Of a stretch of 64,000 nucleotides of DNA, positions 19,111 through 45,705 are shown one piece after another. Numbering within the stretch: position 1 is the stretch's first letter; every line of letters starts with the position of its first letter. The DNA comes from Branchiostoma floridae (Eukaryota > Chordata > Leptocardii > Amphioxiformes > Branchiostomatidae). Both the position numbers and the translations under genes were made by a program. The notes beneath the pieces were generated by a model that had not been told where the DNA came from, ran no database searches, and saw only the letters and a program-made list of their open reading frames with translations. The DNA is taken from contig NC_049991.1 of NCBI RefSeq assembly GCF_000003815.2, positions 13,538,529 to 13,602,528 on the forward strand. The letters are read 5' to 3'.

Positions 19111-19785
19111 TTAGGAAATGGAAAATTTGATATCAAGGTCGTCACGTACAGACGAGAACATTTCATCTACTAGCTCCTGGTCTACCTCGTCCTCACACCT
19201 AAAGCCCATAACTGAAAACTCTGTCAACACCATGTTTCTCTGTGTCGCCAATGCCAACTGTTCAATGGCAGGTTTTGACACCGTGACGTGCCATGACTTA
19301 TCGTTTTGAGACAACATTGTGCTGACCCGTTCACGGCTAGCGCGTCTCCAGGGATCGTCAGCTTTGTGGAAATGTAAACATCTCAGCGTAGTGTTTGTGC
19401 TGACGACGTTTCCTAGGGCGCGGAATACTTCGTCAACGTTCTCTACTCCAGATAACGAAGCGTACCAACGGCCACCAGCTTTGGCTCTATACAGAATCAC
19501 AGAGAGTTTAACTGTGTGGAGTGTACTATTACCACTCAATGCAAGGATGGCAGCGGCCATTCTCTGGACAGACTCAGGGCTTTCCGTGAGGCAGTACTTA
19601 AATGTGAGATTCAGCTCATGCAAGACTGTGTTACATTGGAAGACAGATGCGATAGAGGGCCAAAGGCGATCCTGATCTGTCTTTTTAAGGCGATTGCCGC
19701 CGAGAGTTTGACTCTGGTTGCTTCCGGCTTGGCATGGTTGTTCGGTAGCTTCGTCTTCCTCACTTGAGGAATCCTCTTCGTTTCT
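19111..19785 (-). pseudogene. 3' half of NLR gene 1 (first assembled copy)
   Basis: This is the C-terminal part of an NLR receptor, homologous along its length to the end of NLR gene 2 (shared WPSIASVFQ, LNLTFKYCLT, SPESVQRM, ILALSGN, NTTLRCLHF, KADDPW, WHVTVSKPA, ATQRNMVL). It has leucine-rich-repeat-like periodicity and starts in an acidic, Ser-rich linker (EEDSSSEEDE). It has no start codon of its own. The reading frame continues only into the inverted repeat of a transposon at 19786, and the matching 5' half lies at 41738-45705. The copy at 23609-24283 appears identical, so one of the two is probably an assembly duplicate. Confidence 0.85.
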
Positions 19786-20031
19786 GGCAGATGTTCTATG
19801 TAAGACATCACGAAATCGCCGCAAAATACAGCTGACCGCGCGGGTCGGTTACAACACCGACGCCGACGCCGTGTAAGACATTTTGCCGTGACCGTGTCGA
19901 GATCGTGTATGACATCACGAAGTCGACGCAAAATGCATCTAAGCCCGCGGGCCCGTTGTAACACCATCGCGGAAGCCATGCCAGGTATTTCGCCGCAACC
20001 TTGTCGGGATCGTGTGTGGCATCTAGCCCTG
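19786..20031 (+). repeat. Foldback element left terminal inverted repeat (copy 1)
   Basis: Begins GGCAGATGTTCTATGTAAGA directly after the target sequence TCGTTTCT (19778-19785). It is nearly identical to the complement of 41493-41737 and 37952-38196. It contains an internal, diverged direct repeat of about 116 bp (GACATCACGAARTCGNCGCA occurs twice). Confidence 0.85.
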
Positions 20032-20772
20032 TTGTAGGAATCCTACATAATCCTACAACTGGTGATGTAGGTATTTGTAGGCTGATTGGACATGAAGAAC
20101 AAACCATCCAAAATTCAACTGTAGGAAGTGTAGGATTGTAGGAATCCTACATAATCCTACAACTGGTGATGTAGGTATTTGTAGGCTGAGCGGATATGAA
20201 GAACAAACCATCCAAAATTCAACTGTAGGAAGTATAGGATTGTAGGAATCCTACAAATCCTACAAATGGTGATGTAGACATTTGTAGGCTGAGAGGACAT
20301 TGGGATCGGACCATCCAAAATTCAACTATAGGAAGTGTAGGATTGTAGGAATCCTACATAATCCTACAATTGGTGATGTAGGTATTTGTAGGCTGAGCGG
20401 ACACGAAGAACAAACCATCAGAAATTCAGCTGTAGGAAGTATAGGATTGTAGGAATCCTACATAATCCTACAATTGGTGATGTAGGTATTTGTAGGCTGA
20501 GCGGACATGAAGAACAAACCATTGGAAATTCAGCTGTAGGAAGTGTAGGATTGTAGGAATCCTACATATTCCTACAACTGGTGATGTAGATATTGTAGGC
20601 TGAGCGGACATGAAGAACAAACCATCCGAAATTCAGCTGTAGGAAGTGTAGGATTGTAGGAATCCTACATATCCTACAACTGGTGATGTAGACATTTGTA
20701 GGCTAAGAGGACACAGGGAGCGGCCCATCCCAAATTCAACTGTAGGAAGTGTAGGGTTGTAGGAATCCCCCA
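20032..20772 (+). repeat. Left-oriented 104-bp satellite array, truncated by a gap
   Basis: About seven monomers of roughly 104 bp, each with the core GTAGGATTGTAGGAATCCTA and several further GTAGG/CCTAC boxes. It runs into the N gap at 20773-20872. Compared with the copy at 24529 it has one extra monomer. Confidence 0.9.
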
Positions 20773-20872
20773 NNNNNNNNNNNNNNNNNNNNNNNNNNNN
20801 NNNNNNNNNNNNNNNNNNNNNNNNNNNNNNNNNNNNNNNNNNNNNNNNNNNNNNNNNNNNNNNNNNNNNNNN
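20773..20872. other. Assembly gap (100 N)
   Basis: Exactly 100 N, the usual placeholder for a gap of unknown size. It lies inside the satellite array, where assemblers commonly fail. Confidence 1.
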
Positions 20873-20891
20873 GCGATAGCCCCTTCAGGCC

Positions 20892-22135
20892 CCTACACAC
20901 CCGCCCTCGTGCGCGACTTCGACTTCATGACGACTAACCTGGCCGACAAGACAGCGCAGGTTGTGGACGCCCGGCCGCCTGGCAGGTTCAACGGGACAGA
21001 ACCAGAACCAAGGGCAGGTCAGTGCTGTGTAACAGTGGAGTTCAAGCACCGCCAAACGACCATTCCAAATGTCTTTCAGCCTTTTAGCGTCATCGGTTGC
21101 GTGTTTGGTTTGTGACCTGACGGCCCGGCTTCGAATCCCGAGAGTCAGCATGTTGTTTCTTTCTGTTTCTAGTCATTTCTTACAACTATCAGGCCTTAGG
21201 TGTTCCGGATATGTGAACACGTTGGTGCCTGAGGAAAACAGCTGACATATAATCAACACATACAATGTTCAGCATTGGAGAAGATAAAGTTTTAAAAATA
21301 CTTTCGTCCTTTTTTTCACACCCACTAATATATCTGTATGTCATATTCAACATTTCTCTTCGCTGAAGACCTGATGATGACAATTGTCTTGTTTTTACTT
21401 TTCCCTCTCCATAGACTGCGAACCTGGTCACATCCCGAACAGTCTGAACATGCCGTTCGGTAAGATCCTGGACCCGGAGAGTAAAACCGTCAAACCTCCG
21501 GAGAAACTTCGGGAAGTGTTCGCGGCTGCAGGTATGCACGTGCTCTAAGAAGTTCTTTCTGTCGAGGTAACATTAGCAAAAGCGGTATACATGCTTTTGT
21601 GTTTCTTATGTCTTTCTCACGAGTGAAACCTCTCTTATTGTATCTCTATTATTTATTTTAGGAATGTAGTCCATAACACCAGATTACAACAGGGCACAAA
21701 TGTGACTGCAGATACTGAGAACATATAACAACAGTTGTGTTGGATTATCATACGCCATTTGTAGACTGTTGTAGTGATGCCAGAAGTTAGTGAGTGTGAA
21801 GGAGTAATAATGCGTTTTATAATGGCATAGTGTGAGGGGAAGATGCGATTGAAAAGGGTATCTTCTTCATAATTACAAAGAGTAATCTGAAGGCAATGTT
21901 GTTACAATGAAACCATACTTAATCGTACTTCCACCCCAATCTTCCCACCTCACCAGGTGCAGACCTATCTGGCCCGATGGTAGCGACCTGTGGTTCAGGC
22001 ATGACGGCCTGCGGACTGGTGCTGGCCGCCTATCTGTGCGGGAAGGAAGACGTGCCGGTGTTCGATGGGGCATGGGTCGAGTGGTTCAAACGTGCCAAGC
22101 CGGAGAACATCATTTCTGAGGCTAAAAAAGAGTAG
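20892..22135 (+). pseudogene. Partial duplicate of MPST (exons 4-6)
   Basis: It repeats 16394-17637 at a constant offset of 4,498 bp: exon 4 without its first bases up to 21017, exon 5 at 21415-21531, exon 6 at 21957-22135. The exons and introns look identical, including intron sequence. The 5' exons are absent and the left border abuts a gap. In a species with high heterozygosity, such identity points to an assembly duplicate rather than a second gene. It cannot encode a full enzyme. Confidence 0.85.
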
Positions 22136-23608: not shown

Positions 23609-24283
23609 TTAGGAAATGGAAAATTTGATATCAAGGTCGTCACGTACAGACGAGAACATTTCATCTACTAGCTCCTGGTCTACCTCGTCCTCACACCTAA
23701 AGCCCATAACTGAAAACTCTGTCAACACCATGTTTCTCTGTGTCGCCAATGCCAACTGTTCAATGGCAGGTTTTGACACCGTGACGTGCCATGACTTATC
23801 GTTTTGAGACAACATTGTGCTGACCCGTTCACGGCTAGCGCGTCTCCAGGGATCGTCAGCTTTGTGGAAATGTAAACATCTCAGCGTAGTGTTTGTGCTG
23901 ACGACGTTTCCTAGGGCGCGGAATACTTCGTCAACGTTCTCTACTCCAGATAACGAAGCGTACCAACGGCCACCAGCTTTGGCTCTATACAGAATCACAG
24001 AGAGTTTAACTGTGTGGAGTGTACTATTACCACTCAATGCAAGGATGGCAGCGGCCATTCTCTGGACAGACTCAGGGCTTTCCGTGAGGCAGTACTTAAA
24101 TGTGAGATTCAGCTCATGCAAGACTGTGTTACATTGGAAGACAGATGCGATAGAGGGCCAAAGGCGATCCTGATCTGTCTTTTTAAGGCGATTGCCGCCG
24201 AGAGTTTGACTCTGGTTGCTTCCGGCTTGGCATGGTTGTTCGGTAGCTTCGTCTTCCTCACTTGAGGAATCCTCTTCGTTTCT
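23609..24283 (-). pseudogene. 3' half of NLR gene 1 (copy adjoining the long element)
   Basis: Same sequence as 19111-19785: C-terminal NLR segment with LRR-like repeats, stop codon at 23609-23611. The last eight bases (24276-24283, TCGTTTCT on the plus strand) are the target duplication that recurs at 41738-41745. Adding this segment, less one target copy, to the exons at 41738-45705 gives 3,822 nt, an exact multiple of three. So the two parts form one 1,273-aa reading frame separated by a transposon. Confidence 0.85.
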
Positions 24284-24529
24284 GGCAGATGTTCTATGTA
24301 AGACATCACGAAATCGCCGCAAAATACAGCTGACCGCGCGGGTCGGTTACAACACCGACGCCGACGCCGTGTAAGACATTTTGCCGTGACCGTGTCGAGA
24401 TCGTGTATGACATCACGAAGTCGACGCAAAATGCATCTAAGCCCGCGGGCCCGTTGTAACACCATCGCGGAAGCCATGCCAGGTATTTCGCCGCAACCTT
24501 GTCGGGATCGTGTGTGGCATCTAGCCCTG
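24284..24529 (+). repeat. Foldback element left terminal inverted repeat (copy 2)
   Basis: Same sequence as 19786-20031. GC-rich compared with the AT-rich arrays that follow (contains CGACGCCGACGCCGTG). The junction with the array is at GCCCTG|TTGTAGGAATCC. Confidence 0.9.
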
Positions 24530-27465
24530 TTGTAGGAATCCTACATAATCCTACAACTGGTGATGTAGGTATTTGTAGGCTGAGCGGATATGAAGAACAA
24601 ACCATCCAAAATTCAACTGTAGGAAGTATAGGATTGTAGGAATCCTACAAATCCTACAAATGGTGATGTAGACATTTGTAGGCTGAGAGGACATTGGGAT
24701 CGGACCATCCAAAATTCAACTATAGGAAGTGTAGGATTGTAGGAATCCTACATAATCCTACAATTGGTGATGTAGGTTTTTGTAGGCTGAGCGGACACGA
24801 AGAACAAACCATCCGAAATTCAGCTGTAGGAAGTGTAGGATTGTAGGAATCCTACATAATCCTACAATTGGTGATGTAGGTATTTGTAGGCTGAGCGGAC
24901 ATGAAGAACAAACCATTGGAGATTCAGCTGTAGGAAGTATAGGATTGTAGGAATCCTACATATTCCTACAACTAGTGATGTAGGTATTTGTAGGCTGGGC
25001 GGACATGAAGAACAATCAATTCGAAATTCAGCTATAGGAAGTGTAGGGTTGTAGGAATCCTACATAATCCTATAACTGGTGATGTAGACATTTGTAGGCT
25101 GAGAGGGACATAGGGAGCGGGCCATCCAAAATTCCGCTGTAGGACGTGTAGGGTTGCGGGAATCCTACAGAATCCTACAACTGGTGATGTAGGTATTTGT
25201 AGGCTGAGCGGACACGAAGAACAAACCATCAGAAATTCAGCTGTAGGAAGTATAGGATTGTAGGAATCCTACATAATCCTACAATTGGTGATGTAGGTAT
25301 TTGTAGGCTGAGCGGACACGAAGAACAAACCATCATAAATTCAGCTGTAGGAAGTGTAGGATTGTAGGAATCCTACATAATCCTACAATTGGTGATGTAG
25401 GTATTTGTAGGCTGAGCGGACATGAAGAACAAACAATCTGAAATTCAGCTGTAGGAAGTGTAGGATTGTAGGAATCCTACATAATCCTACAACTGCTGAT
25501 GTAGACATTTGTAGGCTGAGAGGACATCGGGAGCGGACTATCCAAAATTCAACTGTAGGAAGTGTAGAATTGTAGGAATCCTACATAATCCTACAATTGG
25601 TGATGTAGGTATTTGTAGGCTGAGCGGACATGAAGAACAAACCATCCGAAATTCAGCTGTAGGAAGTGTAGGATTGTAGGAATCCTACATAATCCTACAA
25701 TTGGTGATGTAGGTATTTGTAGGCTGAGCGGACATGAAGAACAAACCATCAGAAATTCAGCTGTAGGAAGTGTAGGATTGTAGGAATCCTACATAATCCT
25801 ACAATTGGTGATGTAGACATTTGTAGGCTGAGCAGACACGAAGAACAAACCATCTGAAATTCAGCTGTAGGAAGTGTAGGACTGTAGGAATCCTACATAA
25901 TCCTACAATTGGTGATGTAGGTATTTGTAGGCTGAGCGGACATGAAGAACAAACCATCAGAAATTCAGCTGTAGGAAGTGTAGGACTGTAGGAATCCTAC
26001 ATAATCCTACAATTGGTGATGTAGGTATTTGTAGGCTGGGCGGACATGAAGAACAATCAATTCGAAATTCAGCTGTAGGAAGTGTAGGATTGTAGGAATC
26101 CTACATAATCCTACAATTGGTGATGTAGGTATTTGTAGGCTGAGCGGACATGAAGAACAAACCATCTGAAATTCAGCTGTAGAAAGTGTAGGATTGTAGG
26201 AATCCTACATAATCCTACAACTGGTGATGTAGACATTTGTAGGCTGAGAGGACATCGGGAGCGGACTATCCAAAATTCAACTGTAGGAAGTGTAGAATTG
26301 TAGGAATCCTACATAATCCTGAAATTGGTGATGTAGGTATTTGTAGGCTGAGCGGACATGAAGAACAAACCATCCGAAATTCAGCTGTAGGAAGTGTAGG
26401 ATTGTAAGAATCTTACATAATCCTACAATTGGTGATGTAGGTATTTGTAGGCTGACCGGACATGAAGAACAAACCATCAAAAATTCAGCTGTAGGAAGTG
26501 TAGGATTGTAGGAATCCTACATATTCCTACAACTGGTGATGTAGATATTGTAGGCTGAGCGGACATGAAGAACAAACCATCCGAAATTCAGCTGTAGGAA
26601 GTGTAAGATTGTAGGAATCCTACATATTCCTACAACTGGTGATGTAGACATTTGTAGGCTAAGATGACACAGGGAGCGGGCCATCCAAAATTCAACTGTA
26701 GGAAGTGTAGGGTTGTAGGAATCCTACATATTCCTACAACTGGTGATGTAGGTATTTGTAGGCTGGGCGGACATGAAGAACAATCAATTCAAAATTCAGC
26801 TGTAGGAAGTGTAGGGTTGTAGGAATCCTACATAATCCTACAATTCGTGACGTAGACAATTGTAGGCTGAGAGGGACATAGGGAGCGGGCCATCCAAAAT
26901 TCCGCTGTAGGACGTGTAGGGTTGCGGGAATCCTACAGAATCCTACAACTGGTGATGTAGGTATTTGTAGGCTGGGCGGACATGAAGAACAATCAATTCG
27001 AAATTCAGCTATAGGAAGTGTAGGATTGTAGGAATCCTACATAATCCTACAATTGGTGATGTAGGTATTTGTAGGCTGAGCGGACACGAAGAACAAACCA
27101 TCAGAAATTTAGCTGTAGGAAGTGTAGGATTGTAGGAATCCTACATAATCCTACAATTGGTGATGTAGGTATTTGTAGGCTGAGCAGACACGAAGAACAA
27201 ACCATCAGAAATTCAGCTGTAGGAAGTGTAGGACTGTAGGAATCCTACATAATCCTATAACTGGTGATGTAGACATTTGTAGGCTGAGAGGACATCGGGA
27301 GCGGACTATCCAAAATTCAACTGTAGGAAGTGTAGAATTGTAGGAATCCTACAGAATCCTACAATTGGTGATGTAGGTATTTGTAGGCTGAGCGCACATG
27401 AAGAACAAACCATCCGAAATTCAGCTGTAGGAAGTGTAGGATTGTAGGAATCCTACAAATTCTAC
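24530..27465 (+). repeat. Left satellite array, about 28 monomers of 104 bp
   Basis: Monomers alternate between a common form (ending GAGCGGACATGAAGAACAAA) and a rarer form (GAGAGGACATCGGGAGCGG). Each has about seven GTAGG or CCTAC boxes spaced 8-10 bp apart, around a nested palindrome: GTAGGATT and AATCCTAC outside GTAGGAATCCTAC. Many monomers are almost identical, as expected from recent unequal exchange. No coding capacity; open frames within it are by-products of the repeat. Confidence 0.92.
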
Positions 27466-30400
27466 AATTGTTGCTGTAGATGTGACAAGGGTATATCCAC
27501 TGTTCGTAAACTACAATGCCGGAATTCGACAGACTCCGCAGATCGCGCATTGTTCCTTAGCTGGCTATATTCTTCTGGCCGGCTTGCTCCTCTATTTGTT
27601 TCATTTCTACGATTTTCCCAGCGATCCGGAGTCTGGTAGAGACTACGTATTCATACCGTTTTGGCCCCCAAACTGTGTAGACTCCGGATCACTGATTTAT
27701 TGCTTAGATGATCTGAACTTCGAAGCTACTTTCTTTGTGCAGAAAATGAGCGGATTACTTTTATTGCCTTTCATCAAAGCGACAGTCGACAGACTCCGCA
27801 AATCGCGTACTGTTCCCTAGCCGGCTATATTCCTCTTAACGTGGGATTTTAAGCCGCATGAGTTCCGTTTTTAAGCCGCATGAGTTTTTAAGCCGCATGA
27901 GTTTTTAAGCTGCATGAGTTCCGTTTTGACATTTTTCGACATTTTGACTAATTTCTTCAATACGCGGCCGCACGCACAAGTCGCACCTCAAACTAATTTG
28001 AATCGTTTTAGAAAGTTTCACGTGCGGAGGCAAACGAAAATATACGCATAGTTCGCCTAATAGTTTTGGACATGCACAAAACTATCATTCGTACGCAGTT
28101 TGGTGGCCAAAACGTTATGGATATGCAATACAGTGGTCCCACGTCGGTCGATTGCGCTATGGAGACGCTACATGTTTGCGCTTTATATGCGGATATCGCG
28201 GTATTGCGAGTACATAGCGTTCTTACGTCGCAGACACAACGCACCATGAACGACCGTATAACGAATGCACACATAGATCACGATTTAGTACCGTACGTTC
28301 TGCGACCGGGTTGCGCATACTATGCGTACTGAAAGCGTGATCGACGCAGACTCCAGATTTGGAATAAATACGAAGGTGCATCTGAGTCCAGAAAAAAAAG
28401 ATCATCTCAAGATGCCAGATCTAGGCCAGGATGAATTTGTACCGGGGGCAGGGAGAGATGGTCACAACTTGCAGGACACCATCAATGCGACTGGTCCCAA
28501 CGGAGCCTCCAGGGAAGGGAAGATGCAGAGGAACCTGCTGATTAGCACTGGGTCAATTTGTGTAACACACGTGTCATTTTGTGTAACAGATATTAGACTT
28601 CATTTGCTGATAATAGTACTTTTTTGTGTGTAGAACCACATGATGTAAAAGTACAATATAGAGCCATATTACAACTTTGAAAGAGGGCGTAAGGTTTCAT
28701 AATTGTTTAATTTACGAGTACGTAAAGATCTTGAATACGTTTTGTGGTGTGTATGAGTGTGATTTTTATAGTAGTTGAAATAGTAAGATGATAGGGGAAA
28801 TCATTAAGGACAAAGTGAAAACAAACACAATCTTAACAGTGCATATATTTTTAAGGTAAATGATGGCCCACAGTACTGTAAAAGTACAGTGTTACTGCTT
28901 CACTGCTTCGCAAATAAATACAAAAAAGCTCTTCACTGTCTACTTATTAATGTTCTACTTGCACTGCCTGTAAAGAAAAGTATACGCAGTACAAAGTGTT
29001 CCTCTAACAAAAATACTCTATTGGCAATGCTCGCAAACAAAAGTATATGTAACAGAAACTGTTCCTCTGACACACCTGAAATGCAGTTAGCACCAGGTGC
29101 GTCAGGCATGCGGTCGGTGGACGTTGTGTGCGTCCGGAATACGCCCAACATTGTACCCCATACGCATCTATTCGCAGTACGGAAAATTTTTTTGCGCATT
29201 TCAGAAGCAATCATACGCTGAAGTCGTAATTCAAACGCCACATGTGCTCGACGTACAATTTAATTTATTCCAGAAAAATTCCAAATGTTGGGCATTCGGC
29301 CGCGTATTGACAAAATTTCATGCGGAAATCATGCGCACTTAAAAATATACGCAGGTGTGACCCCACCTAGGCCTTTAGCCTGCAGTCCAGACTACAAACT
29401 GCGTACGAATGACAGTTTTGTGCATGTCCAAAACTATCGAGCGTATACTGGGCGTATATTTTCGTTTGCCTACGTACTTGAAACTTTCTAAAAACGATTC
29501 AGATGCGTTTGAGGTGCGTCTTGTGCGTGCAGTCATGCGGCTTGAAAATATACGCAGGTGTGACCCCACCTTTATGCCCATTTTCCACTAGACGGCGATT
29601 GCGCTGCGCTCTGACTGCGACCTACATAAGATATGTTTAACATTCACTTTCATACTAGGTATATCATACAAAATGTAAAAGCGTGACCGAGAATACAACA
29701 AAACGCGCGAATAAAAAAATCGTTTCTTTTCTATACAATTTGTTGAGCGATCTGTCAAATTTTAGGTTGCAGACAGCGCGCGGAGAAAGGAGATACTCAA
29801 AGTTTTTCTACATGTATGGTCACACTAGCCTGATTTAATCGCGCTTCTTTATAGGCCCGTCGTACATTGCCCCGCGGGGAGGAGGCTACAAGCTCCGGAG
29901 TACGGAGTTAGCGTTACACAGACTATGGTCACATCAAGTAATTAGTATGAATGGCATCCTATTCAGACAGAAAAATTAATGAGATAGGGCGAACAAGAAC
30001 GAGATGGGTTAAAAAAAACAAGATGACTAGATTTTCAAAATAGTCACCATGAACCGTTATTGAAGTGACGAAACAGGGTAGCACATACAACAAATGAAAT
30101 CATTCATCCCTGCAGGTGGACCTCATCGGGCTTAAACTTCCCGGGGCGCTGATAGGAGATCGGGCGGGCCTTACTGTCCTGGTCCACCGAATAAACTGTC
30201 GACATGTCCTAGCTGCCCGATCCTGGCTGGCTCCCAGGGTAGTATTCAAGAAGTTAACTAGTACTTTTTAGTATAGCGTAGTGACTAGTGGTAGACGGTA
30301 TCACTTATCAAATTGGCAATACACTCATAACTACCAAAGTGTAGAGCCAATGAAAGTGGTACAACTTTTGCAACCGTACATCTATTAATTTCATTTCTAC

Positions 30401-30820
30401 AACTACGGTCATGGCTAACATACTAGTGTCACTTCTTCTGCAAGGACAAGACAATCATTAGGGTACAACACAACAATTATTATATTTTCCTATGTTGGTA
30501 CTTTCTCTCCACGTTGACCTTCTCGGTAGTACAGTAAGTCAGAATTTCCTTTTTTCTCCTGAAATCTTGCGGAAACTTAATGAGTACGTGGATGTCATCC
30601 ATATAATCTATTTACTGTGGCCTAATCCTGGGTATGGCACCGCCGTGTGAAAAGCCTCCGCATTGTTAGCCTTTTCCTGTCACATAGGCCTAGGAACCGT
30701 AATTTTGTTGTTGTTGTTGTTATTGTTGTTTTGTTATCGATAAAGAGAGATAAAAAAAGTTCCTTTCGTTTATTTGCTATGTCTTTAGCATGGATATATT
30801 TTGTATTGGATTTCGTATGA
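27466..30820. mobile_element. Unique core of the foldback element, copy 1
   Basis: About 3.35 kb between oppositely oriented arrays. Contents: a direct repeat (GACAGACTCCGCARATCGCG) at about 27528 and 27787; four tandem copies of TTTTAAGCCGCATGAGT at 27847-27920; a nested inverted-repeat element whose arms (about 27965-28105 and 29390-29545) share GTTTTGGACATGCACAAAAC; the phrase GCAGGTGTGACCCCACCT at about 29353 and 29553; and a (TTG)n-like tract at about 30705-30735. The longest frames are 112 codons (27482-27820) and 110 codons (28889-29221); neither resembles a transposase or any family I know. It is nearly identical to 32417-36612 except for a 973-bp insertion there. Confidence 0.7.
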
Positions 30821-31969: not shown

Positions 31970-32416
31970 TGTACGACTGTAGGATTCCTACATAATCCTA
32001 CAACTGGTGATGTAGGTATTTGTAGGCTGAGCGGACATGAAGAACAAACCATCAGAAATTCAGCTGTAGGAAGTGTAGGACTGTAGGAATCCTACATAAT
32101 CCTACAATTGGTGATGTAGGTATTTGTAGGCTGAGCGGACATGAAGAACAAACCATCTGAAATTCAGCTGTAGGAAGTGTAGGATTGTAGGAATCCTACA
32201 TAATCCTATAACTGGTGATGTAGACATTTGTAGGCTGAGAGGACATCGGGAGCGGACTATCCAAAATTCAACTGTAGGAAGTGTAGAATTGTAGGAATCC
32301 TACAGAATCCTACAATTGGTGATGTAGGTATTTGTAGGCTGAGCGCACATGAAGAACAAACCATCCGAAATTCAGCTGTAGGAAGTGTAGGATTGTAGGA
32401 ATCCTACAAATTCTAC
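31970..32416 (+). repeat. Left-oriented satellite array leading into the second core
   Basis: About four monomers, matching the last monomers before the first core (27000-27465) almost base for base. The left terminus of this second element is not in the window. Confidence 0.9.
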
Positions 32417-35400
32417 AATTGTTGCTGTAGATGTGACAAGGGTATATCCACTGTTCGTAAACTACAATGCCGGAATTCGACAGACTCCGCAGATCGCGTA
32501 TTGTTCCTTAGCTGGCTATATTCTTCTGGCCGGCTTGCTCCTCTATTTGTTTCATTTCTACGATTTTCCCAGCGATCCGGAGTCTGGTAGAGACTACGTA
32601 TTCATACCGTTTTGGCCCCCAAACTGTGTAGACTCCGGATCACTGATTTATTGCTTAGATGATCTGAACTTCGAAGCTACTTTCTTTGTGCAGAAAATGA
32701 GCGGATTACTTTTATTGCCTTTCATCAAAGCGACAGTCGACAGACTCCGCAAATCGCGTACTGTTCCCTAGCCGGCTATATTCCTCTTAACGTGGGATTT
32801 TAAGCCGCATGAGTTCCGTTTTTAAGCCGCATGAGTTTTTAAGCCGCATGAGTTTTTAAGCTGCATGAGTTCCGTTTTGACATTTTTCGACATTTTGACT
32901 AATTTCTTCAATACGCGGCCGCACGCACAAGTCGCACCTCAAACTAATTTGAATCGTTTTAGAAAGTTTCACGTGCGGAGGCAAACGAAAATATACGCAT
33001 AGTTCGCCTAATAGTTTTGGACATGCACAAAACTATCATTCGTACGCAGTTTGGTGGCCAAAACGTTATGGATATGCAATACAGTGGTCCCACGTCGGTC
33101 GATTGCGCTATGGAGACGCTACATGTTTGCGCTTTATATGCGGATATCGCGGTATTGCGAGTACATAGCGTTCTTACGTCGCAGACACAACGCACCATGA
33201 ACGACCGTATAACGAATGCACACATAGATCACGATTTAGTACCGTACGTTCTGCGACCGGGTTGCGCATACTATGCGTACTGATAGCGTGATCGACGCAG
33301 ACTCCAGATTTGGAATAAATACGAAGGTGCATCTGAGTCCAGAAAAAAAAAGATCATCTCAAGATGACAGATCCAGGCCAGGATGAATTTGTACCGGGGG
33401 CAGGGAGAGATGGTCACAACTTGCAGGACACCATCAATGCGACTGGTCCCAACGGAGCCTCCAGGGAAGGGAAGATGCAGAGGAACCTGCTGATTAGCAC
33501 TGGGTCAATTTGTGTAACACACGTGTCATTTTGTGTAACAGATATTAGACTTCATTTGCTGATAATAGTACTTTTTTGTGTGTAGAACCACATGATGTAA
33601 AAGTACAATATAGAGCCATATTACAACTTTGAAAGAGGGCGTAAGGTTTCATAATTGTTTAATTTACGAGTACGTAAAGATCTTGAATACGTTTTGTGGT
33701 GTGTATGAGTGTGATTTTTATAGTAGTTGAAATAGTAAGATGATAGGGGAAATCATTAAGGACAAAGTGAAAACAAACACAATCTTAACAGTGCATATAT
33801 TTTTAAGGTAAATGATGGCCCACAGTACTGTAAAAGTAGTGTTACTGCTTCACTGCTTCGCAAATAAATAAAAAAAAGCTCTTCACTGTCTACTTATTAA
33901 TGTTCTACTTGCACTGCCTGTAAAGAAAAGTATACGCAGTACAAAGTGTTCCTCTAACAAAAATACTCTATTGGCAATGCTCGCAAACAAAAGTATATGT
34001 AACAGAAACTGTTCCTCTGACACACCTGAAATGCAGTTAGCACCAGGTGCGTCAGGCATGCGGTCGGTGGACGTTGTGTGCGTCCGGAATACGCCCAACA
34101 TTGTACCCCATACGCATCTATTCGCAGTACGGAAAATTTTTTTGCGCATTTCAGAAGCAATCATACGCTGAAGTCGTAATTCAAACGCCACATGTGCTCG
34201 ACGTACAATTTAATTTATTCCAGAAAAATTCCAAATGTTGGGCATTCGGCCGCGTATTGACAAAATTTCATGCGGAAATCATGCGCACTTAAAAATATAC
34301 GCAGGTGTGACCCCACCTAGGCCTTTAGCCTGCAGTCCAGACTACAAACTGCGTACGAATGACAGTTTTGTGCATGTCCAAAACTATCGAGCGTATACTG
34401 GGCGTATATTTTCGTTTGCCTACGTACTTGAAACTTTCTAAAAACGATTCAGATGCGTTTGAGGTGCGTCTTGTGCGTGCAGTCATGCGGCTTGAAAATA
34501 TACGCAGGTGTGACCCCACCTTTATGCCCATTTTCCACTAGACGGCGATTGCGCTGCGCTCTGACTGCGACCTACATAAGATATGTTTAACATTCACTTT
34601 CATACTAGGTATATCATACAAAATGTAAAAGCGTGACCGAGAATACAACAAAACGCGCGAATAAAAAAATCGTTTCTTTTCTATACAATTTGTTGAGCGA
34701 TCTGTCAAATTTTAGGTTGCAGACAGCGCGCGGAGAAAGGAGATACTCAAAGTTTTTCTACATGTATGGTCACACTAGCCTGATTTAATCGCGCTTCTTT
34801 ATAGGCCCGTCGTACATTGCCCCGCGGGGAGGAGGCTACAAGCTCCGGAGTACGGAGTTAGCGTTACACAGACTATGGTCACATCAAGTAATTAGTATGA
34901 ATGGCATCCTATTCAGACAGAAAAATTAATGAGATAGGGCGAACAAGAACGAGATGGGTTAAAAAAAACAAGATGACTAGATTTTCAAAATAGTCACCAT
35001 GAACCGTTATTGAAGTGACGAAACAGGGTAGCACATACAACAAATGAAATCATTCATCCCTGCAGGTGGACCTCATCGGGCTTAAACTTCCCGGGGCGCT
35101 GATAGGAGATCGGGCGGGCCTTACTGTCCTGGTCCACCGAATAAACTGTCGACATGTCCTAGCTGCCCGATCCTGGCTGGCTCCCAGGGTAGTATTCAAG
35201 AAGTTAACTAGTACTTTTTAGTATAGCGTAGTGACTAGTGGTAGACGGTATCACTTATCAAATTGGCAATACACTCATAACTACCAAAGTGTAGAGCCAA
35301 TGAAAGTGGTACAACTTTTGCAACCGTACATCTATTAACCCTCAAGCACCCGACCTTTTTTTGCGACTAAAATGACCGAGTGGGGTCCAAACGGACCCCA

Positions 35401-36612
35401 AAATGCTATGTTCATAAAATCTCAGTACCATTTCTTATCGGCAATCATTGTATATACATTGCTTCGTCAATGTAAGAGGAAGATTTTGAGATGTTAGGGT
35501 ATTGCTAATTCCAACTCATTATCATAATTTATGCAAAGGTTCAGAAGGACCGCGTTTTGCACTAAACCTACTCCGACCAGATAGGGGAATTTTGAGGCCC
35601 TCAGCAACATTTATGTCGCATAACTCATGAACGGCTAGAGCTAAAGCTACGAAACTTGGTAATTTATCACAAAATATTGTTTGCAAAGGTTTTTGGTCAA
35701 AAAAGTAAATTTTTCATTTTTGAGGGTTGCCATGGCAACCATATTCTAACAGGCATATTTTTGCCAAAATTTGACAATTTCAATTTAAACAAGGTTTTCT
35801 TGGTAAACTACACCTGTTTTCTGACAACAATTAAATTCTATGAAATTCAATGTAATTTTCATGACTTAAAATTTATAATTTATGCTAATTTCATGACGTC
35901 ATTGGTCAAAATCTAAGATGGCCGCCCTGATTAGGCAAATTGATGTCATAATGTCGTCACATTACATGTTGATGACACAGAAATTTTGGTGATGATTTAG
36001 GTTTACATTCTTATTATTGTCTGAAAGTTTGGTAGTCATACTGTAAGTGGTTAAGGAGTTAGCCTCCAAAGTTTGTTTTAAAAACTGCACATTTTTGCTG
36101 GGGTCCGTTTGGACCCCAGAGGGACTGAACACAAACTTTCTTTATAATTTCCACATTATTGTACCAATCTTTGCGAAAACTTGGGAGAAGGTATAAGACA
36201 TATTGACTGACAAAGTCACGGAAGGATTTTTTCTTCAGATCAAAAATGTTCAAATGGCACTTCAAAATGTACGCCTGGGGTCCAAATGGACCCCACTCGG
36301 GTGTTTGAGGGTTAATTTCATTTCTACAACTACGGTCATGGCTAACATACTAGTGTCACTTCTTCTGCAAGGACAAGACAATCATTAGGGTACAACACAA
36401 CAATTATTATATTTTCCTATGTTGGTACTTTCTCTCCACGTTGACCTTCTCGGTAGTACAGTAAGTCAGAATTTCCTTTTTTCTCCTGAAATCTTGCGGA
36501 AACTTAATGAGTACGTGGATGTCATCCATATAATCTATTTACTGTGGCCTAATCCTGGGTATGGCACCGCCGTGTGAAAAGCCTCCGCATTGTTAGCCTT
36601 TTCCTGTCACAT
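32417..36612. mobile_element. Core of the foldback element, copy 2
   Basis: Parallels 27466-30670 at an offset of about 4,951 bp. I noticed only a handful of single-base or short indel differences (for example GCGCATTG against GCGTATTG, and GTAAAAGTACAGTG against GTAAAAGTAGTG) plus the piggyBac-like insertion. That is too many differences for a pure assembly echo and too few for an old duplication. Two young element copies or two haplotypes would both fit. Confidence 0.75.
35339..36311. mobile_element. piggyBac-like non-autonomous element, 973 bp
   Basis: Flanked on both sides by TTAA, with termini CCCTCAAGCACCCG at the left and CGGGTGTTTGAGGG at the right (imperfect inverse). TTAA targets and CCC-starting ends are typical of piggyBac. 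Core copy 1 shows the uninterrupted site (CATCTATTAATTTCATTTC near 30386), so the insertion is precise. Subterminal palindromes GGGGTCCAAACGGACCCC occur near the left end and GGGGTCCGTTTGGACCCC at about 36099. No transposase frame, so it would be mobilised in trans. Confidence 0.85.
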
Positions 36613-37607
36613 NNNNNNNNNNNNNNNNNNNNNNNNNNNNNNNNNNNNNNNNNNNNNNNNNNNNNNNNNNNNNNNNNNNNNNNNNNNNNNNNNNNNNNNN
36701 NNNNNNNNNNNNNNNNNNNNNNNNNNNNNNNNNNNNNNNNNNNNNNNNNNNNNNNNNNNNNNNNNNNNNNNNNNNNNNNNNNNNNNNNNNNNNNNNNNNN
36801 NNNNNNNNNNNNNNNNNNNNNNNNNNNNNNNNNNNNNNNNNNNNNNNNNNNNNNNNNNNNNNNNNNNNNNNNNNNNNNNNNNNNNNNNNNNNNNNNNNNN
36901 NNNNNNNNNNNNNNNNNNNNNNNNNNNNNNNNNNNNNNNNNNNNNNNNNNNNNNNNNNNNNNNNNNNNNNNNNNNNNNNNNNNNNNNNNNNNNNNNNNNN
37001 NNNNNNNNNNNNNNNNNNNNNNNNNNNNNNNNNNNNNNNNNNNNNNNNNNNNNNNNNNNNNNNNNNNNNNNNNNNNNNNNNNNNNNNNNNNNNNNNNNNN
37101 NNNNNNNNNNNNNNNNNNNNNNNNNNNNNNNNNNNNNNNNNNNNNNNNNNNNNNNNNNNNNNNNNNNNNNNNNNNNNNNNNNNNNNNNNNNNNNNNNNNN
37201 NNNNNNNNNNNNNNNNNNNNNNNNNNNNNNNNNNNNNNNNNNNNNNNNNNNNNNNNNNNNNNNNNNNNNNNNNNNNNNNNNNNNNNNNNNNNNNNNNNNN
37301 NNNNNNNNNNNNNNNNNNNNNNNNNNNNNNNNNNNNNNNNNNNNNNNNNNNNNNNNNNNNNNNNNNNNNNNNNNNNNNNNNNNNNNNNNNNNNNNNNNNN
37401 NNNNNNNNNNNNNNNNNNNNNNNNNNNNNNNNNNNNNNNNNNNNNNNNNNNNNNNNNNNNNNNNNNNNNNNNNNNNNNNNNNNNNNNNNNNNNNNNNNNN
37501 NNNNNNNNNNNNNNNNNNNNNNNNNNNNNNNNNNNNNNNNNNNNNNNNNNNNNNNNNNNNNNNNNNNNNNNNNNNNNNNNNNNNNNNNNNNNNNNNNNNN
37601 NNNNNNN
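36613..37607. other. Assembly gap (995 N)
   Basis: Lies between the second core and a right-oriented satellite array. By comparison with copy 1 it should hold the last part of the core and the start of the array. Confidence 1.
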
Positions 37608-37951
37608 TACCTACATCACCAATTGTAGGATTATGTAGGATTCCTACAATCCTACCCTTCCTACAGTTGAATTCGGATGGTTTGTTCTTCATGTCCGCTC
37701 AGCCTACAAATACCTACATCACCAATTGTAGGAATATGTAGGATTCCTACAATCCTACACTTCCTACAGTTGAATTTCGGATGGTTTGTTCTTCATGTCC
37801 GCTCAGCCTACAAATACCTACATCACCAATGGTAGGATTATGTAGGATTCCTACAATCCTACACTTCCTACAGCTGAATTTTGGATGGTCCGCTCCCTGT
37901 GTCACTCTCAGACTACAAACATCTACAGCAACAATTGTAGAATTTTTTAAG
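37608..37951 (-). repeat. Right-oriented satellite array of the second element
   Basis: About three monomers, ending in a degenerate one (ACATCTACAGCAACAATTGT) that is also the outermost monomer at 41460-41480. Confidence 0.9.
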
Positions 37952-38196
37952 CAGGGCTAGATGCCACACACGATCCCTACACGGTTGCGGCAAATGCCTG
38001 GCATGTCTTCCGCGATGGGCTTACAACGGGCCCGCGGGCTTAGATGCATTTTGCGACGATTTCGTGATGTCATACACGATCCTGACACGATCACGGCAAA
38101 ATGCCTTACACGGCGTCGGCGTCGGTGTTTTAACCGACCCGCGCGGTCAGCTGTATTTTGCGGCGATTTCGTGATGTCTTACATGGAACATCTGCC
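37952..38196 (-). repeat. Right terminal inverted repeat of the second element
   Basis: 245 bp matching 41493-41737 with few differences, ending CATCTGCC at 38196. The adjacent bases GGTATGAC (38197-38204) differ from the TCGTTTCT beside the other element, so this end marks a separate insertion. Confidence 0.88.
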
Positions 38197-38219
38197 GGTA
38201 TGACCTACCATTTGTAGCC

Positions 38220-38829
38220 ATGTCGGTCAACACAGAATCAGACAGACATGTTTCAAACATCAGCCACTCGTGCACACATGCCTGGGAAGATGTAACAGGT
38301 GTTAAGGTAGTACTGGGGGGAGACACTACTCTGCAGATTGTTCCCATGGGTGTAGACAAGTCCTACCAACCCCAAACCATTGCTGTAGTTGTGTCAGGTA
38401 TTATAATGGCAGATGATAATCACAGAAACATGTCGTATTCTGTTGGCCATGGCAGAAATATCAGCACATTTAGTCATGAAGAAATGCTGAATGTGACGTG
38501 TCATGTCGACACCGTCCGGGGGGAGACATACCGACATGTCTTCACCACACCCGTGTCCAGTACCCCTGATGGCACACAGTGTACAGGAAAGGTGATCCCG
38601 GTCACAAGAAATGCAACCACCATCATCATGACAGCCGAGGCCCCCCTAAACCAGACGATCACAGTCACAAATGAAACTGTGACAGCGCGACCGGTAAAAG
38701 AGCAAATCACATGTTACTGTTATGCATGCCTCATATACAGCATCACATTGTCAGCTGTAGTAGGGATTGAGCATATAGCGCTGCTAGTAGCATGTGCGTA
38801 TACCATCATAAAACTGCGTAGTTGTTCTC
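38220..38829 (+). CDS. Putative membrane glycoprotein, 3' portion, truncated by gap
   Basis: I do not recognise this protein. The frame is open from about 38175 inside the transposon end, through the first ATG at 38220, to the gap at 38830 (203 codons after the ATG). The first 165 residues are Thr/Ser-rich with seven N-glycosylation sequons (NIS, NMS, NIS, NVT, NAT, NQT, NET) and three cysteines. A hydrophobic segment of about 30 residues (SITLSAVVGIEHIALLVACA) follows, then a basic tail KLRSC. This suggests the ectodomain stem, membrane span and start of the cytoplasmic tail of a single-pass protein. No signal peptide is visible and the real N-terminus is probably upstream of the insertion. 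An Ig-like fold is possible but unproven. Confidence 0.5.
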
Positions 38830-39361
38830 NNNNNNNNNNNNNNNNNNNNNNNNNNNNNNNNNNNNNNNNNNNNNNNNNNNNNNNNNNNNNNNNNNNNNNN
38901 NNNNNNNNNNNNNNNNNNNNNNNNNNNNNNNNNNNNNNNNNNNNNNNNNNNNNNNNNNNNNNNNNNNNNNNNNNNNNNNNNNNNNNNNNNNNNNNNNNNN
39001 NNNNNNNNNNNNNNNNNNNNNNNNNNNNNNNNNNNNNNNNNNNNNNNNNNNNNNNNNNNNNNNNNNNNNNNNNNNNNNNNNNNNNNNNNNNNNNNNNNNN
39101 NNNNNNNNNNNNNNNNNNNNNNNNNNNNNNNNNNNNNNNNNNNNNNNNNNNNNNNNNNNNNNNNNNNNNNNNNNNNNNNNNNNNNNNNNNNNNNNNNNNN
39201 NNNNNNNNNNNNNNNNNNNNNNNNNNNNNNNNNNNNNNNNNNNNNNNNNNNNNNNNNNNNNNNNNNNNNNNNNNNNNNNNNNNNNNNNNNNNNNNNNNNN
39301 NNNNNNNNNNNNNNNNNNNNNNNNNNNNNNNNNNNNNNNNNNNNNNNNNNNNNNNNNNNNN
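38830..39361. other. Assembly gap (532 N)
   Basis: Interrupts the putative glycoprotein frame. Whether the frame resumes beyond it cannot be judged. Confidence 1.
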
Positions 39362-40242
39362 CCTGTATAATAACCCCTCTGCTAACCGTCCCATCCATTA
39401 GCAAACATACAGTAGACATACGTGAAGTAAAAGCTGGAAACCTTCACGCCAAAACATGTCATTACCAGGCCTCAAGCCCCATCATTGTCAAATCTCAAGC
39501 CGACGTCTTGGAAAGACCACATGCACGGTCTAAGAACCTGTAAAAGAAGAGCAGGGAAGGGTTGGTAACGCCAAGTATAAAAGCTTCTTTTCTATTAAAT
39601 CTCCTTGGTAACGCTTAGTTTACCTTTATCCGCGGGTAACCTAACCTATATCCACCATATTTAGATTTTCGAAATATCAAGTTGATGGCCGGTGGTTTCA
39701 ATTGCAATATTTTCAAAACCTTGTCGTTACCCACTGAAATGGTTTATGATGCTTTATAACAGTCTTACGTAGGGGGAGAGACAAGCAATCTATTTCTGCT
39801 CCAGGTGAAGTGAACATGTAAATCATCTTTCATTCTCAAACATGAAGTTACCGACACATTATTTCATATGATGGCCCTCAATCTAACCCTGAGTTGCCCC
39901 AAAATTTGTGAGACCCCACCTAATGCCACATACCTGTGCCACATTTATCTGTATCTGGAGGCATTGAGCTTTTTAGATCTCTGGTCAGCTGGATAAGTCT
40001 GCACATATGTACGCAGGCAGGCACACAAACGCACACGTACACTCTCATGCATGCACGCACTGCAAGTACTTCGTCTGCTGTTATAACCTCTTTCTACTAG
40101 GACGGCGCTCTCATGATCACCGCTCTCTGTCTCTGACTTAAAATTTGACATATCGCTCAGCAAATTCTATAGAAAATGATAAACATTTTTTTAACACTTT
40201 GCACTTTACACAAATCTTCTCAGTCACACTATAACGTTTGAT
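39362..40242. other. Unassigned sequence between gaps
   Basis: No satellite, no core and no gene recognised. A CA-rich patch lies at about 40010-40060. Together with 38197-38829 this looks like genuine host DNA flanking the second element, bridged here between two pieces of satellite array. Confidence 0.5.
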
Positions 40243-40342: not shown

Positions 40343-41492
40343 ACAGGATTCCTACAATCCTACACTTCCTACAGCTGAATTTCTGATGGTTTGTTCTTCA
40401 TGTCCGCTCAGCCTACAAATACCTACATCACCAATTGTAGGATTATGTAGGATTCCTACAGTCCTACACTTCCTACAGCTGAATTTCAGATGGTTTGTTC
40501 TTCGTGTCTGCTCAGCCTACAAATGTCTACATCACCAATTGTAGGATTATGTAGGATTCCTACAATCCTACACTTCCTACAGCTGAATTTCTGATGGTTT
40601 GTTCTTCATGTCCGCTCAGCCTACAAATACCTACATCACCAATTGTAGGATTATGTAGGATTCCTACAATCCTACACTTCCTACAGTTGAATTTCGGATG
40701 GTTTGTTCTTCATGTCCGCTAAGCCTACAAATACCTACATCACCAATTGTAGGATTATGTAGGATTCCTACAATCCTACACTTCCTACAGCTGAATTTCT
40801 GATGGTTTGTTCTTCATGTCCGCTCAGCCTACAAATACCTACATCACCAATTGTAGGATTATGTAGGATTCCTACAATCCTACACTTCCTACAGCTGAAT
40901 TTCGGATGGTTTGTTCTTCATGTCCGCTCAGCCTACAAATACCTACATCACCAATTGTAGGATTCTGTAGGATTCCTACAATCCTACACTTCATACAGTT
41001 CAAGTTTGGATGGTTTGTTCTTCATGTCCACTCAGCCTACAAATACCTACATCACCAATTGTAGGATTATGTAGGATTCCTACAATCCTACACTTCCTAC
41101 AGTTGAATTTCGGATGGTTTGTTCTTCATGTCCGCTCAGCCTACAAATACCTACATCACCAATTGTAGGATTGTGTAGGATTCCTACAACCCTACACTTC
41201 CTACAGTTGAATTTTGGATGGTCCGCTCCCTATATCCTCACACCCTACAAATGTCTACATCACCAATTGTAGGATTCTGTAGGATTCCTACAACCCTACG
41301 CTTCCTACAGCTGCATGTCGGATGGTTTGTTCTTCATGTCCGCTCAGCCTACATATACCTACATCACCAATTGTAGGATTATGTAGGATTCCTACAATCC
41401 TACACTTCCTACAGCTGAATTTTGGATGGTCCGCTCCCTGTGTCACTCTCAGACTACAAACATCTACAGCAACAATTGTAGAATTTTTTAAG
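40343..41492 (-). repeat. Right-oriented satellite array next to NLR gene 1
   Basis: About 11 monomers, reverse complement of the left array, ending in the same degenerate outermost monomer as at 37920-37950. Confidence 0.92.
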
Positions 41493-41737
41493 CAGGGCTA
41501 GATGCCACACACGATCCCTACACGGTTGCGGCAAATGCCTGGCATGTCTTCCGCGAAGGTGTTACAACGGGCCCACGGGCTTAGATGCATTTTGCGACGA
41601 TTTCGTGATGTCATACACGATCCTGACACGATCACGGCAAAATGTCTTACACGGCGTCGGCGTCGGTGTTTTAACCGACCCGCGCGGTCAGCTGTATTTT
41701 GCGGCGATTTCGTGATGTCTTACATGGAACATCTGCC
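41493..41737 (-). repeat. Foldback element right terminal inverted repeat
   Basis: 245 bp complementary to 24284-24529 with about 95% identity by eye, ending CATCTGCC at 41737. The flanking TCGTTTCT at 41738-41745 is the second copy of the target duplication. It supplies the stop codon (41671-41673) for the truncated NLR reading frame. Confidence 0.9.
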
Positions 41738-44700
41738 TCGTTTCTTGAAACACCCACATCAACATCGTCGTCAATGAATAATTCAAATGTCCTCAGGGTC
41801 CTATTTTGAGCCAGAGCATCCATCAGCCTGAAGATGTGAAACCGAGTTAACTCTCTGTAAGTGATAGGATTATCTCTGCCCTTTTGCTTATGATAAAAAG
41901 AAAAATGTAGCACAATGTGCCGAAGAACTTCAGTAACGGATATAATGTTAGCCAAGATACTTGGAAGGTTCTTGGTATGCCAAAAGACAGTGCACCTGTA
42001 CATCAACCTCAAGCTAAAGGTTTTGATGGTCTTTGACTCGCAGAGAAGCCTTCCAATCGACTCATTGAAAGCCCGGTCATCAACACTAGTTGGGACGTAA
42101 TCTTCCAGCTCATCTCCACCGTCTGAGTCTGGCTCGTAGTAGTATTCTTCTGGGTGATGTTGTAACGCTCCATAGATCCAAAGCTTGAATGTGCTGAGTG
42201 TGCTCGACGAAGCTAAGAGGTCAAAAGGCAGGCGAAGCTTGCGAAGCGGCGCACCAGAAAATATGGACTCGTGCAAGTACGACTGCAACGAGGCGAAGCT
42301 TACTAACAAGTGGTCTTCATCGAGAGAAAGCGAACCAGGGAAATCGAAATCAGACTCCTCCATGTGCAGCTTCAGTATAATAGAGGACAGAGGTGTGCAA
42401 ATGGACATGGCACGAAATAGTTTGGTCATCAGTACGAAGTCTCTGTCACTAGTTGTAAGCCCGAGGATTTGGGCGAAGAAGACACGAATAGACTGCGCCC
42501 TTTCCAATACGTCCCAGAGAGGAACTCCTCCATATGCAGCTTCCTGGTCCTCGATATTCAAGCCAGGAAATATCATAACATCTAGTTCAAGCTTTGTTAT
42601 TGAGAGATGTGTCACAAAGCGGTTTCTTACCAATGCTGAAGCCACCTCTTTCGTCATGGGATGTGTCGATAGGTTTATATCAACTCGGGTTACACCTGGA
42701 CACTCTGCGTTTAAAAGCAAAGGAAGACCAAAACGCCAGATGTCACCATGCACATATGCAAAGAGATCTGAAACATCAATAGTCTTCGGAAAACAGGGGT
42801 AAAGCACTCTCACTAGATCTAGGTCACTTTCACTCTCAATCAGACATTTGATGCAGAACGCAAACAGAGCTCTGAACTGGTCTTTTGCATCACTGTCGCC
42901 ACTACTTTGCAACGCCAGGAGACGGCTACGGAAGCATTCAAATACTGCTCTTGCGCGAGTCTTCAAGGTGCCAACGAGAAACAAGCAAACTTGGTGCAAG
43001 TTATCGTCTTCCAACGAACGCAAGACACGTTCTTTAAAAGTAGGCACGGTTTCAGACACATTTGCCCGTAGTCGCCTGGCTCGTGGTTCCACCAGAAAAA
43101 GCTGGTGTGGGATGAACTCAAACATGCCAGTTGACACAGAGCCACTTAAGCCCTCCTGGACAGCGGCATCTGTAGACAGGAAAACTGCAGCAAAGTACTC
43201 TTGGAAGGTTTTGTGCAGAAACGACCAAACAAAAGAAGCTTCGATGCGGGATGCTCCCAAGTCTTTTGTGAGAAATCCAAGTTTGAACATCTCCATGCCC
43301 CTGGTCACGGACTGAAAATCAGCCTCATCAAAGTTTACCTCATTACGGAGAAGGCCTTCCCAGGCAACTCGGCCCATTTCTACAAGCTGAGTAAATACAT
43401 TGCCAGGGATCTCTGTGCCAGCAACATTTATGTCGTTCTTGCTGCAGTAACGCTTCACAATGCAGAGAACCAAGCTAGAGAATAAACCTGTGATAGTCGA
43501 TGGAAGTGAACCGTCATTGTCTTCCCAAACAATACAAAGTAACATGGTGTTGAGGGGATTTGTGGCAAGTTCAAGTAAGTTTTTGTCTCTAGCTATCCGC
43601 GATCCAAGACTGTTTGCGAGGTGAGGGCGCTCACTAAAGTATTTGTGAATGTATTCTTGGCTATTCGCCTCTGTGTAGCCTGTGATATTGCAATGTAACG
43701 GACAACCCTTTAGGTCTGCAGTACACTCGTGAGGACGGGAGGTAACTACTACAGTAGCATCGGTCATGACCCTTTGCTGTATCAGCTTTATCACGTCAGA
43801 AGACTGTCTAACCTGAGGTTTCAACTCATCCAAGCCATCTAGGATGAACAGCACTTTGGGCTGATTGGCGGCTTGTCTCATGTATGACCATAGACCCTCC
43901 CTGTCTATGTCTGTGTCCTCGGGCAAGAGCTGGTCGAAAACGGCATCTTTGGCGTTACCATCAAAGTAACGCAGTTGCAAGAGGAAAGCGAATTCGAATT
44001 GTTGGAATGAATCACTGGACCAGTCGCACGCCAACTTACGACACTGGATACTTTTACCTATGCCCGGTGGACCCTCAATCCTTATTCTCTTTGGCTTCTC
44101 CGTTTTCTCATCCTGAAATACCCCATGATCTTCAATCTTAATAATCTCTCCATTTCTATTTACATCAAATATCTGCTCTATCCTGATAAGCCCGGGGGCC
44201 CCCCCAGAAACTCGAGGGTTACTACCAAACCGTTTCCCTGTCTCCCCCCTCCCTGGCCGTCTGAATGGTAGGTCCCTATCTGCCCTGTCCTTCCTGACTA
44301 TTTGAAGGTTTGTGTACACATCCTTCAGTTGAAGATGGAGGTCGTCGAACCAGGGAAGAGGCTGGAACTCCCCCAGCTTCGTCCTGTAGAGCCGTTTTAG
44401 ATGCCACTTCAGCCACTCTAGCTGCTCTGTGGAGGGAAGCTGAGCCTGAGGTCTGCGCACTGAAAAGACAAATAAACACAATGAATTGTTGTAAAATGTA
44501 CATATAATTAGTATAAATTTTAGTTCAATAAGAGCACTACTGCTTGGATCTTATTGGGCGTCTCTAATGGACGATATCATGTTAATAAAATAATGGATAG
44601 GCTCAGATATACATGTGCAATATATAGAAGTGTTCATAGTGCAAGTCAATGATTGGTCTTCACATCCATAAATATGACAGCTTGCATAAGAGAACAGCAT

Positions 44701-45705
44701 TCCCGTTATTATTGTCAATCCACCAACACACAAAAATATCGTGTATCAACTATGAACTGTGTATGTTTGCAAGCAGTAATCGATTGTGAATGCTTAATAA
44801 CACACAAAAAACACGTTTGCTTGCACTCACATCTGTTTCGAAATTTCTTGTTGACATAGTTTTCAAAACAGGTGCCTTCAAGTTTCCAGTAACTTCAGGA
44901 AAAGATGTGCAGCAGAAAATATAACGTCGATACTCCATTGTTGTTTTTGCATGAGAGATAACGTTACCATTTGTGAGCGGGCGACCTGTGGGGATGTTGG
45001 CTAAGCTTGCTATGTCGTCCAGTCTGTCGATATCTGCTGAGTGTGTCTGGTGTCTCAGACCTTCCTCGCCAGCATCATACGTCACTTCGGTTCCTACGTA
45101 AAACACATGAAAACATATAACAGCAGTCTTTGTTTTGCAACAATAACAGCTGCAGACTATTGACAGCAACCAACGTTATTGTTTTGGGGCGAGAGAACAT
45201 ATTTTTTTTAACAAACATGCAAACGTTTGCCACTCGCCTGACCGGCATTGACTTTGCGGGCTTTGTGAAAACTGATCCCCTACACCCATGATTGTTGTTG
45301 ACACTCACCGTCCTTATACGTTACGTGTGTGACGTGTTGGATAAGAGGGCTGTTGAAAGTTAGCTCGCAGTTGGCCCCAGGCTGCAGTAGGACGTTGTCC
45401 TTGCCCTCCACGTGACCAGTATAGCTGATGCCCTGAACAGTGCCTGGCTGTTGACAGGCCAGTCTGAGCTGCAAGTCACCTAGGTACGAATGAAGTAGAA
45501 AATCAGCGTAACTTTATAACAAATAGCCCCAAACAGTGTATGTGGCCCAATTTGTGACATTGAACTCACCTTCATATGCCTGAGCATCTCTGGACGAGAC
45601 TGCAAGTTCCCCTGGGTTAGCTTGGCGGCACAGAGCTCCCGTGTCGTCATCCGAGCTGTTGCTTGACGACCGCCGAGCATAAACTTTAGGACGTGCACCA
45701 GACAT
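41671..45705 (-). CDS. NLR gene 1, 5' half: NACHT receptor truncated by a transposon
   Basis: Intracellular innate-immune receptor of the NLR class. Exons 45570-45705, 45309-45479, 44968-45093 and 44459 downward join in phase. Exon 4 leaves host sequence at 41738, and about 22 aberrant residues encoded by the transposon end precede a stop at 41671. Residues 1-45 start MSGARPKVYARRSS and are Ser/Asp-rich. Residues 46-102 (exon 2) form a small unknown module with NVLLQPGANCELTF. Exon 4 opens with a linker (QLEWLKWHLKRLYR, QLKDVYTNLQIV) followed by the NACHT NTPase: Walker A GPPGIGKS at about 274-281, Walker B LFILDGLDEL at about 348-357, sensor VVVTSRP at about 381-387. Helical and LRR-like regions follow to FELFIDDD. 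No CARD, DED or death domain is recognisable. The missing C-terminus is at 23609-24283. Confidence 0.88.

Follow-up and report, generated by a model that had tools for sequence, protein, structure and literature searches.

A foldback-type DNA transposon divides one member of a local NLR gene pair in Branchiostoma floridae

Does a giant transposon split an NLR immune receptor gene in Branchiostoma floridae, and how much of the element that the assembly displays at this locus belongs there? The window, the whole stretch of 64,000 nucleotides analysed here (C13:13538529-13602528; genome 513 Mb in 431 contigs), had been described in an earlier note as holding a giant foldback-type element that splits the receptor gene and is flanked by a perfect 8-bp target-site duplication. 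The central claim, that an NLR gene is split by a foldback-type transposon flanked by an 8-bp duplication, is borne out by TCGTTTCT at both junctions and by the open frame of the joined gene. We assign a probability of about 0.9 to the reading that a foldback insertion of ~9 kb plus one gap splits the gene, that contig B is misplaced and that 16394-20772 is redundant (Table 1).

Table 1. Window coordinates of the split NLR gene, its paralogue, the inserted element and the adjoining assembly features
Feature	Position	Strand	Basis or remark
NLR gene 1, upstream (NACHT) part	41746..44481	-	ORF; Pfam NACHT; 76% identity to gene 2, 527 aligned positions
NLR gene 1, displaced C-terminal part	23609..24283	-	ORF; 71% identity to gene 2 C-terminus
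NLR gene 2, comparison paralogue	47702..51207	-	ORFs, Pfam, alignment; two overlapping frames
Target-site duplication TCGTTTCT, left side	24276..24283	.	directly outside left terminus
Target-site duplication TCGTTTCT, right side	41738..41745	.	directly outside right terminus
Redundant contig end	16394..20772	.	holds second left terminus at 19786
100-N gap	20773..20872	.	
Left terminal inverted repeat	24284..24529	.	starts GGCAGATGTTC
Left array, 104-bp units, 28.4 copies	24530..27479	.	
Element interior	27480..30805	.	no frame >=150 codons; two frames without Pfam match
Right array, 104-bp units, inner part (contig A)	30806..31869	.	orientation same as 40345-41485
100-N gap (contig A/contig B)	31870..31969	.	
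Contig B: second element copy and foreign flank	31970..40242	.	own right end at 38196
100-N gap (contig B/contig C)	40243..40342	.	
Right array, 104-bp units, outer part (contig C)	40345..41485	.	
Right terminal inverted repeat	41486..41737	.	ends GAACATCTGCC

The junctions carry the argument for an insertion. Identical copies of TCGTTTCT directly abut the two termini, a match expected at random for two 8-mers with a probability of ~1.9e-5 from base composition, although TCGTTTCT is itself enriched within the window (8 matches vs 1.8 expected, some of which fall in repeated stretches). The inverted termini are likewise present as claimed, with 24284-24529 and 41493-41737 sharing 94.3% identity over 246 bp with one gap. 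The NLR frame was said to enter the right terminus, leaving a truncated NACHT protein that ends in the transposon, and we confirmed that the upstream half, on the minus strand, continues into the element, takes 21 residues from it and stops there, at 41671. Joining the two halves with one copy of TCGTTTCT restores the hinge as the earlier note had read it, VSRNE-EDSSSEEDE, and the joined NLR frame runs from 44481 for 3,411 nt or 1,136 codons, with its sole stop at the last codon. Because any clean insertion keeps the frame once the element and one duplication are dropped, the preserved frame is no separate surprise.

Comparison with gene 2 further supports the unity of the two halves. The joined protein is collinear with gene 2 in successive blocks of 76%, 50% and 71% identity, the last of which lies beyond the insertion, and the 3′ flanks of the displaced half and of gene 2 proved paralogous, as the earlier note had reported (74.9% identity across 478 bp and 69.6% across 125 bp), with a further, mostly coding block of 836 bp at 74.6% identity. 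The insertion falls in an acidic hinge at residues 904-946 of the joined protein that is unalignable to gene 2, so the paralogue provides no test of the exact breakpoint. NLR gene 1 contains a NACHT domain (Pfam PF05729, 2.3e-20), and no Pfam family was matched by its C-terminal 224 amino acids, which the earlier note had called LRR-like, or by the C-terminal frame of gene 2. In the assembly, 1-kb queries from the two halves matched only themselves and gene 2, plus the redundant contig end for the C-terminal half, and recovered no empty allele. The insertion into the NLR gene is genuine and of an ordinary kind. In gene 2, the frames 49555-51207 and 47702-49585 overlap where gene 1 is open throughout, a pattern that could reflect a frameshift, a short intron or faulty sequencing.

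The size of the element is a separate matter. The earlier note called it giant, and the 17.5-26 kb that this implies is very probably a product of the assembly, since two assembly problems, a redundant contig end and contig B, inflate it. The segment 16394-20085 equals 20892-24583 letter for letter over 3,692 bp across a 100-N gap, and the two copies begin to differ only within the 104-bp array. Given this identity, the alternative left end at 19778-19785 is no separate site and is best read as part of the redundant contig end; a second real insertion site at 19778 is rejected. Runs of exactly 100 N separate the pieces listed in Table 1 and recur at 63320-63419, and longer N runs occupy 36613-37607, 38830-39361 and 59923-60544.

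Contig B has the makeup of a second element copy with a foreign flank. It begins in a left-type array, its interior is 99.7% identical to that of contig A over 2,910 bp, and its right terminus is followed by GGTATGAC, a 1/8 match to TCGTTTCT, so that the 8-mer beside contig A's left end and the one beside contig B's right end agree at one position of eight. From about 38197 onward, the flank is a member of a multi-copy family, for which 29 further matches were recorded. This flank (38197-40242) represents the host family of the second copy, with members on C7, C19, C2 and C16, and its open frame at 38220-38828 matches no Pfam family above cut-off. Contig B also carries ~974 extra bp (35339-36311) that are absent from contig A and show no match of at least 80 bp in the loci compared.

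A position for contig B is available on C2. At C2:386341, a left terminus preceded by GGCATGAC occupies the equivalent base in a member of the same host family, and C2 shows N from 386419 through at least 392300 and, further on, as far as 395083, a stretch of 8,665 bases if continuous vs 8,273 for contig B. Past the N stretch, C2 matches a relative, locus L061, from position 1538, and contig B matches L061 up to position 1533. Within the window, contig A ends and contig C begins with array units of one kind and one orientation (93.7-95.5% across the five best overlaps), whereas array overlaps reach at most 43% between contigs A and B and at most 38% between contigs B and C. Contig B is therefore very probably misplaced and very probably belongs in the N stretch C2:386419-395083. 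Against this placement, the left terminus on C2 can be followed for only ~47 bp before the sequence turns into a unique tail and then N, the flanking 8-mers of C2 and contig B agree at 7/8 positions, the contig B flank is 87-88% identical to the two C7 copies vs 80-83% between the sequence upstream on C2 and its relatives, and the N on C2 may represent either a gap or withheld sequence. We also considered C2:386341 as a member of a different subfamily, and this is unlikely because its junction sequence matches the genome once, at itself, with up to 3 mismatches allowed.

Without contig B, the element comprises 7,586 + 1,395 = 8,981 bp plus one gap. Since the contig joins are N gaps, the evidence linking contigs A and C is the shared 8-mer, the joined frame and the array type rather than reads, and the array likeness by itself would suit any copy of the element family. 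By their positions, the paired termini on C3 lie 10.8 kb apart end to end, and those on C12, with N between them, 10.3 kb. The copy at C12:17.57 Mb differs from the window element by one mismatch in the left 247 bp, is 99.5% identical over the right 393 bp, has the left array in common and is 92% identical over 2.6 kb that are mostly array. It was rejected as a full twin: the readable core stretches compared do not match contig A, and the C12 copy accordingly supports the element size only loosely.

The same ends recur throughout the genome. Searching with a 30-base pattern of the terminus, at most 2 mismatches allowed, gave 81 matches, the redundant copy and contig B included (41 forward, 40 reverse), vs 0 for a reversed control. 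Flanking 8-mers agreed in all ten facing-terminus pairs that were read: seven at 8/8 (the window, C12:17.57 Mb, C3:20.43 Mb, C19:10.85 Mb, C5:1.65 Mb, C7:24.51 Mb and C14:16.03 Mb) and three at 7/8 (C12:2.53 Mb, C1:34.10 Mb and C7:6.70 Mb). Among the 90 non-partner pairings of these 8-mers the best agreement was 6/8, and in the C5 pair the nearer right terminus agrees at 1/8 and the next right terminus matches. The 81 matches show that copies of the family are dispersed, and the ten pairs read show sharp ends flanked by target-site duplications. Copies with the same ends differ internally, with 104-bp arrays around different cores in the window and on C12 and arrays of about 110 and 158 bp in the C14 copy. 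Between two facing family termini in locus L059 (C15:2240000-2248000), positions 3678-7313 hold an open frame of 1,211 aa that looks by eye like a LINE-type retroelement.

These observations bear on the preferred reading and its rivals. If the scaffold were correct, a true 17.5-kb composite would be present, one element holding a second element and 2 kb of another host gene family; composite and nested transposons are known in general, and the scaffold order as given speaks for this account. Contig B nevertheless has no left end here and is joined on both sides through 100-N gaps, its ends are unlike the neighbouring contigs, its right flank agrees with the left duplication of the window at 1/8, and both of its sides suit the C2 N stretch. 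On account of the separate right end, foreign flank, C2 fit and mismatched arrays of contig B, we reject a giant or composite element, and we regard the scaffold order as very unlikely to be true. Another possibility is that the NLR halves were never one gene here and that a scaffolding error set partial genes beside copies of one repeat family, as might be suspected where gaps separate the halves and two other assembly problems already lie in the same stretch. Such an error would have to produce the identical 8-mer at both junctions (chance ~1.9e-5), in a family whose true partners agree and whose non-partners do not, together with a joined frame that is open, that is collinear with gene 2 to either side of the insertion and that continues into a related 3′ flank, and two halves that are otherwise single copy; we hold it to be very improbable.

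A third account accepts the insertion and questions its consequence, with the element spliced out as an intron or providing an alternative 3′ end so that the gene still functions. Neither half has an internal stop, and dN/dS against gene 2, calculated with our own script, comes to 0.29 and 0.37 in two stretches of the upstream part and to 0.45 in the downstream part. The insertion nonetheless interrupts a continuous open frame, and constraint measured against gene 2 mostly dates from before the insertion, making a functional gene a very unlikely outcome. The dN/dS values would fit a gene constrained until recently and give no date for the insertion. That the insertion is recent, as the earlier note had it, is thus plausible with indirect support, from the absence of internal stops and from another copy whose interior is 99.7% identical across 2,910 bp.

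The element that divides NLR gene 1 in the preferred reading has long inverted ends and internal tandem arrays in opposite orientation, the right array lying partly in the gap. It is best read as a non-autonomous DNA transposon of foldback type, which is a structural class, that disrupts one NLR copy and has a core without a recognised protein. Pfam searches of eight frames, two from C14, two from C7, two from the window interior and one from C235 (element or element-like) and one from the contig B flank, returned only weak matches below cut-offs (E 0.099 to 0.24). Candidate intervals were defined by the proximity and orientation of terminus matches, and none of the 26 contained any of the 27 genome hits to MULE transposase, with a distant or unlisted partner still possible, any of the at least 33 hits to hAT transposase, or any of the three hits to the P-type/TNP-like family PF21787. 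Two 6-kb stretches around PF21787 hits had no paired ends, with one 10-mer carrying one mismatch in locus L071. The P-type family PF12017 gave no match, a result that is uninformative because no control scored either. As these searches found no transposase, we infer that the element moved in trans.

A transposase supplied in trans would probably have recognised the element ends, and a cut-and-paste insertion at a staggered cut may then have produced the observed 8-bp duplication of TCGTTTCT. The insertion parts the NACHT-bearing portion from the last ~224 codons, which the upstream product would lack while keeping NACHT. Since the upstream frame stops inside the element, after its 21 element-encoded residues, the allele probably yields a shortened receptor or no receptor at all.

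Structural counterparts exist in other animals. Tetris, a foldback element of Drosophila virilis, is described as having inverted ends, internal tandem repeats of ~220 bp and duplications of 8-10 bp (PMC4079207). The present element resembles it in combining inverted ends and tandem repeats (104 bp here) with a middle without apparent coding capacity, and differs in belonging to another phylum and in showing 8-bp duplications in ten pairs; the likeness is a structural one. Tm1, a Mutator/foldback family of root-knot nematodes, is similarly characterised in PMC3169594 by duplications of 8-10 bp, mostly 9 bp, with no clear consensus, by composite inverted ends of variable length and by many members without a transposase. 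The two groups share these features apart from the prevalence of 9-bp duplications; Tm1 also has a putative MULE-type transposase, and no MULE hit lies in the 26 candidate intervals here. Galileo, a Drosophila element of the P superfamily with 7-bp duplications and a P-type transposase according to PMC3573991, likewise has long, internally repetitive Foldback-like ends whose repeat number differs between copies; the duplications here are 8 bp, and none of the three P-type hits lies in a candidate interval. According to PMC3573991 and PMC4079207, the end repeats of Galileo are said to carry extra transposase binding sites. The word 'foldback' is absent from the main text of a paper on amphioxus transposons (PMC5802833), and no title among the literature results listed concerned this element family, which is no proof that it is unpublished.

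Together, these data document how a transposon cleanly disrupted one member of a local NLR pair, and they define, by its ends, a foldback family whose internal arrays and cores vary. Tandem arrays in such elements can break an assembly and so create a false giant element, and at this locus the assignment of one contig can be changed from C13 to a particular N stretch of C2. A broader proposal is that this same-end family, with its differing arrays and cores, is still mobile through a transposase other than MULE, hAT or P and creates presence/absence variation in receptor-like genes, the multi-copy genes concerned being the window NLR and the contig B host family; we offer it as a doubtful conjecture.

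Two further features of the window lie outside the NLR locus. Tandem copies of a ~985-bp unit occupy 9142-11519, with one 300-bp stretch 100% identical in three copies, and represent either a young triplication or another assembly effect. Translated fragments at 53679-53798 and 59920-60687 resemble, by eye, parts of ABC-transporter domains.
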